In this document: in pieces, positions 5,746 through 19,597 of the stretch | Numbering within the stretch: the stretch's first letter is position 1 | Layout of the letters: every line of letters starts with the position of its first letter | Translations under genes and position numbers: made by a program | Virus record (IMG/VR): IMGVR_UViG_3300003937_000230 | Location: 1 to 20,004 of that record | Source of the DNA: a virus | DNA: 20,004 bases | Reading direction: 5' to 3' (one strand) | The notes under the pieces: model-generated | Told to the model about the DNA's origin: nothing | The model's input: the letters and a program-made list of their open reading frames with translations, nothing else | Database searches by the model: none

Positions 5746-5775
5746 TTGACAAAAACACCGCTAAACCCTTATAAT
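5746..5775 (+). promoter_or_regulatory. Sigma70-type (early) promoter
   Basis: TTGACA at 5746-5751, an 18-bp spacer, and TATAAT at 5770-5775: both hexamers are perfect. Transcription would start near 5782, about 16 bases before ATG 5798. It begins immediately after the last tRNA and would be read by the unmodified host RNA polymerase, so it likely drives the two genes that follow early in infection. Confidence 0.88.
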
Positions 5776-5797: not shown

Positions 5798-6010
5798 ATG
5801 ACACTGACTACTAAGTTCAAGAAAGATATCCAAACCTTAAAAGGTGCGGTAAATGGAGAATTCTTCCTGGATGTGAAGAATCCGAAACTTCTCAAAAAGG
5901 TCCGTCGTTATTATGAAAATATTGGTGTTGTCTTTTCAGGCGATGCTCTTGATGATTATGATATTTTGATGGAACAAATCTCTGTCGATCTTGAAGCAGT
6001 AGAAGCATGA
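5798..6010 (+). CDS. Small hypothetical protein, first gene after an early promoter
   Basis: 70 residues, mixed charge: MTLTTKFKKDIQTLKGAV, then FFLDVKNPKLLKKVRRYYENIGVVFSG and an acidic helical end. No membrane segment or cysteines. It has its own consensus promoter at 5746 and overlaps the next gene by four bases (ATGA at 6007), so the two form an operon. Early host takeover is a plausible setting, but no function is recognisable. Confidence 0.75.
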   Translation: MTLTTKFKKDIQTLKGAVNGEFFLDVKNPKLLKKVRRYYENIGVVFSGDALDDYDILMEQISVDLEAVEA

Positions 6011-6249
6011 AAGTTCTTCTAGAACGTTTCCCGTATCGTTATGTTGAGTGTGGCACATTGGAAATCAATGGTATGCCAGACTATCGCATTCAGAAAGCAA
6101 ATACCTGGTCAAAGAGATATAGTGATATGTATCTCCTTGATAATAAAATGCAACTTCTGACTGCGATAGATGACTTTGAGTACACCAAATGGTTAGATCC
6201 AGATGGTGTACCTTGTTATACTAAAGACTCGGTAAGTCGTGTAAACTAG
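6007..6249 (+). CDS. Small hypothetical protein, second gene of the early pair
   Basis: 80 residues, rich in Tyr, Trp and Asp: KVLLERFPYRYVECGTLEI, then IQKANTWSKRYSDMYLLDN and a C-terminal DDFEYTKWLDPDGVPCYT. Probably a compact soluble alpha/beta protein. The ATGA overlap with the previous stop indicates translational coupling. No family recognised. Confidence 0.75.
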   Translation: MKVLLERFPYRYVECGTLEINGMPDYRIQKANTWSKRYSDMYLLDNKMQLLTAIDDFEYTKWLDPDGVPCYTKDSVSRVN

Positions 6250-6280
6250 TCCTGGTGGAGTCATTAGACCCTTTTAAAAA

Positions 6281-6290
6281 CTAAATAAAT
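6281..6290 (+). promoter_or_regulatory. T4-type late promoter
   Basis: CTAAATAAAT at 6281-6290 matches the CTAAATA late-promoter form seen in T4-like cyanophages (the counterpart of T4 TATAAATA). It lies about 23 bases before ATG 6313. No -35 element is expected for this class. Confidence 0.65.
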
Positions 6291-6312
6291 CAAGAGTTAA
6301 TTATTAATCACT

Positions 6313-6555
6313 ATGGCAACCAAAGGAACAGCAGCAAAGTCTGCAAGCGGCGCATCGATGTCAAAGTATGATGTCGAAGTCGAATCAAGACTTCAGGCGC
6401 TGGAAGAAAAAGCACATACTTTATCTGGAGGTGATGGAAATGCATCTGGAATGGAGGCAAAACTTGATGCTCTCATTGAGGCATTAAATCAGTGTCCTGC
6501 AGTTACAGAAAATTTTCCAAAAGATTCTGAAGGCAACAGAAGAATTAGTCTTTGA
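6313..6555 (+). CDS. Small Ala/Ser-rich protein with a short coiled-coil segment, probably late
   Basis: 80 residues. A low-complexity N-terminus (Thr, Ala, Ser, Gly) leads to a helical stretch EVESRLQALEEKAHTL and a second one MEAKLDALIEALNQ with heptad-like Leu and Ala spacing, then a polar tail. The late promoter at 6281 suggests a virion or assembly role; that is inference. The tandem-hairpin RNA element starts right at its stop codon. Confidence 0.75.
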   Translation: MATKGTAAKSASGASMSKYDVEVESRLQALEEKAHTLSGGDGNASGMEAKLDALIEALNQCPAVTENFPKDSEGNRRISL

Positions 6556-6662
6556 TAAGGTTTCTTGCTTTTCCCAAGAGCAAGTGGTGCGGATGGAGGA
6601 AACTCCCGCCCTGTTTCTTGCTTCAGGTTAAAGAGCAAGTGGCGTGCATGAAAGACCTTATG
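6554..6662 (+). ncRNA. Structured RNA leader with duplicated hairpins upstream of gmd (candidate wcaG-type cis-regulatory RNA)
   Basis: Two copies of a motif: TTTCTTGCTT (6561 and 6614) followed by AGAGCAAGTGG (6577 and 6632). Each copy folds as CTTGCTT/GAGCAAG (stems 6564-6570/6578-6584 and 6617-6623/6633-6639). Between them GGAG-GAAA-CTCC (6595-6606) forms a tetraloop hairpin. ATAAGGT near the 5' end can pair with ACCTTAT at 6655-6661 to close the whole element. A terminator (6663) and then gmd follow, the layout of a riboswitch. The published wcaG RNA motif is known from cyanophages upstream of exopolysaccharide and light-induced genes, so this is the leading candidate; I could not compare to the Rfam model. 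It might also be an independent small RNA. Confidence 0.5.
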
Positions 6663-6690
6663 AGGACGGTTGCATAAACCGTCCTTTTTT
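6663..6690 (+). terminator. Rho-independent terminator directly upstream of gmd
   Basis: GGACGGTT (6664-6671) pairs perfectly with AACCGTCC (6677-6684) around a GCATA loop, followed by TTTTTT (6685-6690). It lies 26 bases before the gmd start. It either ends transcription of the upstream small gene or serves as the switchable part of the RNA leader. Within it TTGCAT (6671) with TATAGT (6693) at 16-bp spacing could be a weak promoter for gmd. Confidence 0.88.
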
Positions 6691-6716
6691 AGTATAGTGT
6701 AAAAAACAGATATAAT

Positions 6717-7724
6717 ATGAAAGTCGCTCTAATCACGGGGATTACTGGTCAAGATGGTTCATATCTAGCAGAATTGTTGCTTGAGAAAGGATATGAGGTC
6801 CATGGTATTGTGAGACGTAGTTCTTTGATTAATACTCATAGAATTGACCATATATTCAAAGATATTGAATTGCATTATGGAGATTTAACAGACTCTACTA
6901 ATGTGGTTAGTATTATTAAAAAAGTTGAACCCGATGAAATCTATAACCTTGCTGCTCAGAGTCATGTGAAAGTGTCGTTTGAACTTCCTGAGTACACTGG
7001 CAACGTTGATGGACTTGGAACGCTTCGTATTCTTGAGGCAGTTCGTCTTTTAGGAATGGAAGATAAAGTGCGTATTTACCAAGCATCTACATCCGAAATG
7101 TTTGGTAAGGTTCAAGAGATTCCTCAAAAAGAAACTACTCCATTTTATCCACGATCGCCATATGGATGTGCAAAGGTTTATGCGTATTGGTTGACGAAGA
7201 ACTATCGCGAGTCCTATGGAATTCACGCAGGTTCTGGTATTCTTTTCAATCACGAATCTCCACGTCGTGGCGAAACTTTTGTTACTCGTAAGATTACGAT
7301 TGCTCTGAAGAACATTGCAGAAGGAAAGTGGAATACTCTTTCTCTTGGCAATCTAAATTCTTTACGTGATTGGGGTCACGCAAGAGACTTTGTTGAAGCA
7401 ATGTGGATGATGCTTCAACAGGAGAAAGGAGATGATTATGTTGTATCTACAAATGAACAACATTCTGTTCGTGAGTTTGTAGAAAAGTGTGCCCCTTACT
7501 TCAATATGAATATTGAGTGGCACGGTGAAGGACTTGAAGAAGTTGGTATAGATACTATCTCGGGTAAAACTATTGTCAAAGTTAATGAGAAGTATTTCCG
7601 TCCAGCAGAAGTAGACACACTTCTTGGAGACTCAACAAAAGCAAGAGCAGTTTTGGGTTGGTATCCCAAGACATCATTTGATCAACTAGTGGAGGATATG
7701 TGTGAGAATGAAGAAGGGATCTAG
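6717..7724 (+). CDS. gmd: GDP-mannose 4,6-dehydratase
   Basis: Converts GDP-D-mannose to GDP-4-keto-6-deoxy-D-mannose, the first step to GDP-L-fucose and GDP-D-rhamnose. 335 residues, close to the family's usual ~345-370. Extended short-chain dehydrogenase fold: NADP-binding GITGQDG at 8-14, then the R-R-S-S signature ([10 protein letters not shown] 31-40), catalytic STSEMFG at 124-130 (Thr125, Glu127), and YGCAK with Tyr149 and Lys153; [10 protein letters not shown] follows, typical of Gmd. The residue order equals E. coli Thr132/Glu134/Tyr156/Lys160. Start ATG 6717 has no good ribosome-binding site and lies next to TATAAT. It overlaps fcl by 23 bases, so the two enzymes are probably made together. 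Downstream users include Fcl and perhaps the Rmd-like protein at 16987. Confidence 0.96.
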
Positions 7725-8664
7725 AATCTTTGTCGCAGGACATAAAGGACTTGTTGGTTCTGCTATTATTAGACAGTTGGAGACTGCAGGACATACTAAT
7801 ATCTTGACGGTTGATAGGTCGGAGGTTGACCTTACAAATCAGAGAGAAGTAAATAAATGGTTCAAAACGCATGAACCGAAGTATGTCTTTAATGCTGCTG
7901 CTAAAGTGGGTGGTATCATTGGTAATCAAAATCATAAGGCAGAGATGATTTATCAAAATCTTATGATTGAAAGTAACTTGATTGAAGCTGCATATCGTAA
8001 CGGGTGTAAGAAGTATTTGTTCCTGGGGTCTTCATGCATTTATCCAAAAGAACCTCAACTGCCAATCACTGAAGATCAGTTGATGACTGGTAAACTTGAA
8101 CCCACCAATGATGCTTATGCGGTGGCAAAGATTGCTGGTATCTATCTCTGCAAATCTTATCGTCAGCAGTATGGATTCAACGCTATTAGTGCGATGCCAT
8201 GCAATCTTTATGGACCAGGAGATAATTATCATCCAGAAAACTCTCATGTTATTCCTGGAATGATTCGTAAAATTCATGACGCAAGAGATGACATTGGTTA
8301 CGATCTTGGTGGTCCATATTATAGGGGAGTAAGACTTTGGGGAGATGGTTCTCCTATGAGAGAGTTTTTATATGTTGATGACTTAGCAGATGCATGTATT
8401 CTTCTTATGAAAAAATATAATGAAGAAGAACCCATCAACATTGGATCTGGAAAAGAAATTTCTATTAAGGACCTTGCTGAAGTGATTGCTTCTGTGATTG
8501 GACTTGAAAGAGAAAATATTCATTGGGACACTTCTAAACCAAATGGAACAATGCGAAAGGTTATGGACGTATCAAAGATTAAAGAACTTGGTTGGAAACC
8601 GCAGGTCTCCTTTGATGATGGTATTAGAGTTGCCTATGGAGACTTTCTAACAAGATTTGGATAA
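7702..8664 (+). CDS. fcl: GDP-L-fucose synthase (GDP-4-keto-6-deoxymannose 3,5-epimerase/4-reductase)
   Basis: Takes the Gmd product to GDP-L-fucose. 320 residues, the usual length. GHKGLVGSA (13-21) binds [12 protein letters not shown] (109-116) holds the catalytic Ser and Cys; Tyr139 and Lys143 form YxxxK; E. coli Fcl uses S107, C109, Y136, K140. AAKVGGI after the second strand is typical. GTG 7702 has GGAGGA six bases upstream; ATG 7708 (two residues shorter) fits the E. coli alignment slightly better, so the exact start is open. Overlaps gmd by 23 bases. A strong terminator follows, which ends the gmd-fcl unit. Confidence 0.95.
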
Positions 8665-8670
8665 TACTGT

Positions 8671-8695
8671 AGGGGTTGCGTAAGCGCCCCTTTTT
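8671..8695 (+). terminator. Rho-independent terminator after fcl
   Basis: GGGG (8672-8675) and TGC pair with GCG and CCCC (8684-8690) around a GTAA loop with one bulged T, followed by TTTTT (8691-8695). It separates gmd-fcl from the rest of the cassette. Confidence 0.82.
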
Positions 8696-8698
8696 CTG

Positions 8699-8709
8699 TA
8701 TAATAAATA
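8699..8709 (+). promoter_or_regulatory. Late-type promoter for the epimerase-glycosyltransferase block
   Basis: TATAATAAATA at 8699-8709 includes ATAAATA, the T4-type late form, and also TATAAT, a sigma70 -10. No good TTGACA is visible at the right distance, so a late promoter is preferred. It lies 22 bases before ATG 8732, which has ribosome-binding site AAGGAAAG. Confidence 0.6.
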
Positions 8710-19319: not shown

Positions 19320-19322
19320 GTG

Positions 19323-19351
19323 TTGACAAAACTTTATGTTTCCTATATAAT
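19323..19351 (+). promoter_or_regulatory. Perfect sigma70 promoter of hli
   Basis: TTGACA (19323-19328), exactly 17 bp, TATAAT (19346-19351). Both hexamers and spacing are ideal. Start near 19358 gives a ~21-base leader with GGAG at 19369-19372 before GTG 19379. A perfect promoter means immediate strong reading by the host polymerase. Confidence 0.95.
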
Positions 19352-19378: not shown

Positions 19379-19597
19379 GTGACTGTAACAACCAATGATC
19401 GTGGACAACAGAATCTGTTTGCCAAAGAACCTCAGATGTACGTCTCTCAGACTGATGCAGAGCGTTACGGTTATGAGTCATATGCAGAACGTGCAGAGAA
19501 ATTGAATGGACGCACTGCTATGCTTGGATTTGTTTCTGCTGTCATCTCTTATACTTTCAGTGGTAGTGTATTTTTCTTTGGTGTCTTCGGATTCTAA
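19379..19597 (+). CDS. hli: High-light-inducible protein (chlorophyll a/b-binding-like)
   Basis: 72-residue single-helix Hlip of the CAB/ELIP superfamily, placed in the thylakoid membrane, where these proteins bind chlorophyll and carotenoid and protect photosystem II. The signature AEKLNGRTAMLGF lies at 39-51 (E40, N43, R45 ligands and G50-F51) and is followed by the hydrophobic VSAVISYTF and a Phe-rich end SGSVFFFGVFGF. Cyanophages carry many hli genes to keep photosynthesis going in infection. GTG start with GGAG six bases upstream. Its TAA shares a base with the next ATG (TAATG). Confidence 0.97.
   Translation: MTVTTNDRGQQNLFAKEPQMYVSQTDAERYGYESYAERAEKLNGRTAMLGFVSAVISYTFSGSVFFFGVFGF

Follow-up and report, generated by a model that had tools for sequence, protein, structure and literature searches.

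The RNA element upstream of gmd in the cyanophage DNA analysed here is a genuine and already known RNA, wcaG, and, judged by its sequence, it is built of a 35-nt pseudoknot module that occurs twice. We hypothesize that this two-module wcaG lies at the 3' end of an early transcription unit, abuts a terminator-promoter composite of the PeSL type (promoter-early stem-loop), and acts in cis on read-through, a reading to which we give a probability of roughly 0.4. Its identity, module structure, covariation and composite site are read from the sequences of the window (the whole stretch of 20,004 nt) and its homologues, and the promoters and terminators named are consensus predictions. The window contains the following features.

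5746–5775, + strand: predicted early promoter of the upstream unit, TTGACA-18-TATAAT, a 12/12 consensus match
6226–6271, + strand: partial upstream module, type II, a GACT/AGTC hairpin and then TGGTGGAGTCATTAGACCC; the second helix has 2 bp here
6313–6555, + strand: small ORF (phrog_35121), flanked by the upstream module and wcaG, with its TGA directly next to wcaG
6555–6661, + strand: possible closing stem, ATAAGGT 6555–6561 with ACCTTAT 6655–6661
6556–6653, + strand: wcaG RNA (RF01761), cmscan match over the full model
6557–6589, + strand: pseudoknot module 1, with the strand AAGG of its pseudoknot (PK1), UUUC, stem 6564–6569/6579–6584, then GUGGUG; 41.5 bits with the single-module model R1; stem covariation
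6590–6609, + strand: linker with the small hairpin GGAG-GAAA-CUCC of the Rfam structure; loop and stem variable in homologues
6610–6644, + strand: pseudoknot module 2, CCUG 6610–6613 with CAGG 6624–6627, stem 6617–6622/6634–6639; 38.2 bits with R1
6662–6690, + strand: intrinsic terminator, hairpin 6662–6686 with 10 pairs and a loop of 5, then a T-tract; ends 26 nt 5' of the gmd ATG
6670–6698, + strand: embedded predicted sigma70-type promoter, TTGCAT (6670)-N17-TATAGT (6693); predicted start ~6705
6717–7724, + strand: gmd, GDP-mannose 4,6-dehydratase (Pfam PF16363, 1.1e-147)
7702–8664, + strand: fcl-like GDP-L-fucose synthase of the epimerase family (Pfam PF01370)
8671–8704, + strand: second terminator-promoter composite, TTGCGT-N17-TATAAT, 5' of the next epimerase (third nucleotide-sugar) gene

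The cmscan search with Rfam 15 placed wcaG at 6556–6653 (+) with 93.9 bits and an E-value of 4.5e-17, complete over model positions 1–98; the gathering cut-off of RF01761 is 42 bits. This bears out the initial annotation, which had named wcaG as a candidate; the setting is that of a T4-like cyanophage. As a whole, the initial reading is partly supported. The window element has two hairpins with covarying stems and the small middle hairpin, and it lies 5' of an exopolysaccharide gene (gmd at 6717), with an hli-like gene (weak Pfam match) farther away at 19379. A TTGACA-N17-TATAAT-like promoter is found directly 5' of this hli-like gene (19322–19350), past the sugar operon. The gene order gmd, GDP-L-fucose synthase also occurs in S-SKS1. 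Folding of the stretch 6554–6692 beats all 200 shuffles (z –4.7), and the Rfam scan gave no other family, sub-threshold wcaG matches excepted, for the upstream module region of the window or for that of five homologous loci. Weinberg 2010 reports wcaG from marine and cyanophage sequences, 5' of exopolysaccharide or high-light genes, and grades it as a probable riboswitch (PMC2864571). Later cyanophage papers only re-annotated wcaG, and no report of its ligand was found in the open-access literature searched. Since 2010 it has been an unsolved riboswitch candidate, which cyanophage annotations repeatedly call an exopolysaccharide regulator.

At least 144 distinct wcaG elements, from two IMG/VR scans and a search of phage records (113 records, all cyanophages), were parsed into their parts, and the homologue figures refer to the matches listed. 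Because GCAAG is fixed in the pattern of the first scan, stem 1 varies more than these matches show; both patterns left stem 2 and the pseudoknots free. A core pattern gave 37 matches in the species genomes of GTDB (~85,000, bacterial and archaeal), and one of these matches was genuine. Occurrence of wcaG in bacterial genomes was rejected, as 36 of the 37 matches were not genuine. The genuine locus (L220) belongs to a MAG labelled Euryarchaeota TMED129 (marine archaeal), and its contig is probably a misbinned cyanophage.

CTTGC does occur twice (6564 and 6617) and GCAAG twice (6580 and 6635), as first noticed, and from these repeats a switch had been proposed in which either two local hairpins or a rod would form. 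Among the matches listed, both local stems are paired in 144 of 144 homologues. The Watson-Crick fraction per pair of the local stems is 0.96–1.00, compared with ~0.47–0.74 for shuffled pairs at most of the variable positions. A pseudoknot of 4 bp (PK2) is formed by the CNNG 5' of UUUC and the CNNG of the hairpin 2 loop (6610–6613/6624–6627 in the window), and it is fully paired, in six sequence versions, in all 144 homologues among the matches listed. Stem 2 and PK2 together have 440 of 440 pairs on 44 distinct rows (among the matches listed), and their covariation score on these rows is 0.669, whereas it is 0.210 for shuffled and at most 0.151 for slid arrangements. The pseudoknot of hairpin 1 (PK1) is weaker, with 3–4 pairs in 119 and 2 pairs in 25 homologues among the matches listed, and with ~2 pairs in the window. 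The covariance check that had been suggested thus speaks for the local stems and PK2 but not for the rod, the pairings of which are at the shuffled (chance) level in the homologues (among the matches listed). In the 53 distinct stem sets among these matches, both hairpins are formed in 53 and both rod helices in 10, and the hairpin/rod switch was ruled out as a conserved mechanism. Both structures can form in the window sequence, where, with pseudoknots ignored, the rod is ahead by 4 kcal/mol at 6556–6653 (–33.6 vs –29.2 kcal/mol); at 6554–6692 with the closing stem, the local hairpins are computed to be more stable than the rod. The rod is energetically possible in the window because both stems happen to share one sequence. 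Mutual exclusion of hairpins and rod, which the homologues contradict, is extremely improbable and could at most be peculiar to the window sequence.

The closing stem of the earlier reading, ATAAGGT/ACCTTAT, can pair in the window, where it competes with PK1, but its signal across homologues is weak (–8.01 vs –7.54, sd 0.17, ~2.7 sd) and possibly comes from shared ancestry. An antiterminator pairing of wcaG with the terminator arms was rejected, since swapping the arms among loci revealed nothing specific to wcaG: with the 5' arm, the observed value of –9.33 was not significantly different from the swapped –9.16 (sd 0.11), and with the 3' arm the pairing was weaker than swapped. In the homologues, the UUGCAU loop of the terminator showed no association with either tail type (UGCAUG or AGCCUG).

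The single-module model R1, built from single 35-nt modules, gives 41.5 and 38.2 bits for the halves of the window wcaG and 14.5 bits for the next-best site in the window; because R1 was trained on both halves of the homologues, it expresses their common pattern and is not an independent discovery. Each of 18 complete cyanophage genomes has one wcaG locus, and all 42 module matches, 1–3 per genome, fall within these loci, while contigs have up to four modules per locus. The homologous loci comprise 1–4 modules and related upstream modules without an Rfam call, some of which give sub-threshold wcaG matches. This second, upstream form reads AGUC-GGG-GACU-A-rich-CCC-UGGUSG, and its loop and downstream strand covary (GGG/CCC, GGA/UCC, GAG/CUC). 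Its pattern has 74 matches within 600 nt upstream vs 4 in shuffles, although some of the 74 are the first form in another reading, which makes the true count of the second form smaller. Upstream pseudoknot-like modules sharing UGGU(G/C)G and a small hairpin with wcaG were observed at 6226–6271 of the window, in L127 (1472–1620) and in L095 (4130–4230). The wcaG-bearing phage contig of L095 also carries a glutamine riboswitch (RF01739, 52.2 bits, 458–504). In cyanophage S-H34 (L233, 3227–3817), an annotated NusG-type antitermination factor is encoded ~1.1 kb past wcaG. Module arrays split by an ORF-sized gap occur in L129 (850–1260), L183 and L136 (634–1296). In L226 (2498–2720), L230, L232, L105 and L053, a third type I module precedes a hairpin with a (T)TGACC loop, whose T-tract is minimal or absent, and a tRNA-Gly gene comes next. 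At 6281–6288 of the window, 5' of the small ORF 6313–6555, there is a T4-type late promoter-like sequence, CTAAATAA.

The terminator that had been described 26 nt 5' of gmd is present, as a 10-bp hairpin (6662–6686) followed by T's. As the proposed platform of a switch it stands less well, because it has no conserved pairing with wcaG and doubles as the predicted gmd promoter. Among the matches listed, a terminator starts within 110 nt of the module 2 GTTT in 126 of 144 homologues, nearly always at 39–54 nt. In the stricter composite test, the sigma70-type –35 overlaps the hairpin and the –10 lies past the T-tract. A promoter is embedded in the hairpin at 100 of 118 wcaG-side terminators vs 47 of 402 others on the same contigs (Fisher 4e-51; among the matches listed), the 402 being terminator-like sites, many of them chance matches inside genes. 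The composite consensus over 96 sites is TTG(C/A)(A/C)(T/A)-N17-TATAAT, with TTGCAT, TTGACA and TTTACA forms, and the median predicted leader between the composite promoter and the ATG is 15 nt (both among the matches listed). A promoter is found within 165 nt downstream of wcaG in 106 of 137 cases and upstream in 10 of 141, and the upstream stop codon lies at a median of 35 nt 5' of wcaG (likewise among the matches listed). The window composite has both the terminator hairpin with its T-tract and the embedded predicted promoter TTGCAT-N17-TATAGT, whose boxes (–10 TATAGT, –35 TTGCAT) are weaker than the consensus. From this promoter, gmd RNA would start at ~6705 with a leader of ~12 nt and would not contain wcaG. 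Thus, as the terminator doubles as the predicted gmd promoter, wcaG falls outside the main predicted gmd leader and, lying before the composite, would end the preceding early transcript; a read-through transcript may still cover it. With the second composite at 8671–8704, there is one such site on either side of gmd-fcl, the arrangement that cassette exchange would produce. A loose composite scan of Bellamy (first 200 kb) and SynMITS9220M01 gave 4–5 candidates per genome, no more than in shuffles; clear composites with a long stem and a strong promoter were found at the wcaG site in both genomes, and one more 5' of hli in Bellamy.

A classical riboswitch, in which wcaG would bind a small molecule (a nucleotide sugar, or a metabolite linked to light or energy) and control termination 5' of gmd, seems rather doubtful to us. 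The unpaired letters of wcaG, very highly conserved across homologues, the two linked domains resembling a tandem aptamer, and the terminator directly 3' of wcaG agree with it, as does the rating as probable in Weinberg 2010 (PMC2864571). On the other hand, the operon has its own predicted promoter 3' of wcaG, and swapping arms among loci gave no alternative pairing of wcaG with the terminator. A sugar riboswitch in particular accords poorly with one fixed site per genome that is also found 5' of hli, tRNA and tail-fibre genes, so the nearby sugar genes do not indicate a sugar. Of 124 first genes after wcaG in contigs, 60 are epimerase-type and 17 cytidylyltransferase-like, as assigned by reading the sequences, and most are sugar-nucleotide enzymes (all among the matches listed). 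Next to wcaG, isolates have sugar genes, hli, tRNA, tail fibre or oxygenase. A sugar island of ~20–24 kb separates wcaG from DUF680/pstS/hli in Bellamy and S-SM2, and in several phages without the island wcaG is near hli. Since the sugar genes lie between wcaG and hli in the two genomes examined, the genes present argue only weakly for a sugar ligand. The nucleotide-sugar ligand favoured by the initial annotation loses its force, because a fixed site with variable sugar cargo explains the gene context equally well. From this limited genome set, we infer that such a site would give the double association (exopolysaccharide, high-light) reported in 2010. If the downstream genes truly start behind wcaG, ligand screens guided by those genes would be misdirected.

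Some wcaG loci (S-H38, S-SZBM1, Sf-FR1 and others) lead directly into a gene with no terminator in between, so terminator control cannot be the whole function, and a role in mRNA stability or between cistrons has to be considered. As a 3'-end or intercistronic element, the pseudoknots would protect or process upstream early mRNA or tRNA precursors and leave the downstream genes uncontrolled. This would fit the position of wcaG soon after upstream stop codons and before terminators or tRNA genes, its retention at loci without a terminator, and the modules flanking inserted ORFs on both sides. We nevertheless regard it as quite unlikely, because a general stability device should recur behind several units and there is one locus per genome, and because the letter conservation exceeds that of a simple structure.

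The preferred reading, cis control of read-through at the operon boundary, is favoured by a terminator so close to wcaG and by a downstream operon with its own predicted promoter. The early unit would start at the promoter at ~5746, cover the ORFs at 5798–6555 and carry wcaG at its 3' end, and the composite would end this unit and start the gmd-fcl operon. During its synthesis, wcaG would act in cis on RNA polymerase or on the terminator and would set early read-through into the sugar operon, added to the operon's own promoter. A more general view, which we consider more speculative than likely, is that wcaG might be a modular tandem-pseudoknot cyanophage RNA and not a 5'-leader metabolite riboswitch, fixed with the composite at one operon boundary and acting on RNA polymerase (antitermination or termination control) for any cargo operon shuffled in. 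The single-module description and the composite lead to concrete, testable predictions, and the covariation-supported pseudoknot is suited to mutants.

PeSLs of T4-type phages have reportedly been described in Arbiol 2010 and Comeau 2014. They resemble the window site in having a terminator hairpin with the –35 in its loop and the –10 past the T-tract, and in flanking exchangeable gene cassettes, while the window composite differs in being coupled to the wcaG RNA and in the scarcity of its kind at other places in the two cyanophage genomes scanned. A cyanophage paper citing the PeSL work mentions few PeSLs in S-PM2 (PMC4503421). With the published RF01761, the window wcaG shares a full-length match, the cyanophage setting and exopolysaccharide genes next downstream. 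In the published description, wcaG is a candidate cis-regulatory RNA or riboswitch of the following genes; the window copy is unlike these in lying 5' of a terminator that carries the downstream promoter, with related modules upstream. The STAXI motif (RF01728) resembles wcaG in its repeated pseudoknot unit, which occurs two or three times according to Weinberg 2010. STAXI differs in hosts and gene context, and the Rfam scan gave no STAXI match in the window. In type III antitoxin RNA (ToxI), a terminator follows the tandem pseudoknots, a layout like that of wcaG. The antitoxin consists of multiple RNA repeats (PMC8860590). By analogy with ToxI, a released 3' piece of wcaG (pseudoknot array and terminator) could act in trans by binding a protein of the host or the phage, either as a decoy or in the manner of an antitoxin RNA. 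Such a role is very unlikely, because the modules vary in sequence and number and are not identical repeats, no toxin gene is present downstream, and no likeness to other Rfam families was seen in the scan. The HK022 put RNA has two stem-loops in ~70 nt and causes read-through of intrinsic terminators in cis (PMC9378689). It may be likened to wcaG as a phage cis RNA with two stem-loops made in early transcription, by layout and not by sequence or family, the effect on polymerase being a feature of put. By this analogy, the action of wcaG would resemble that of put RNA more than that of a pairing-switch riboswitch.
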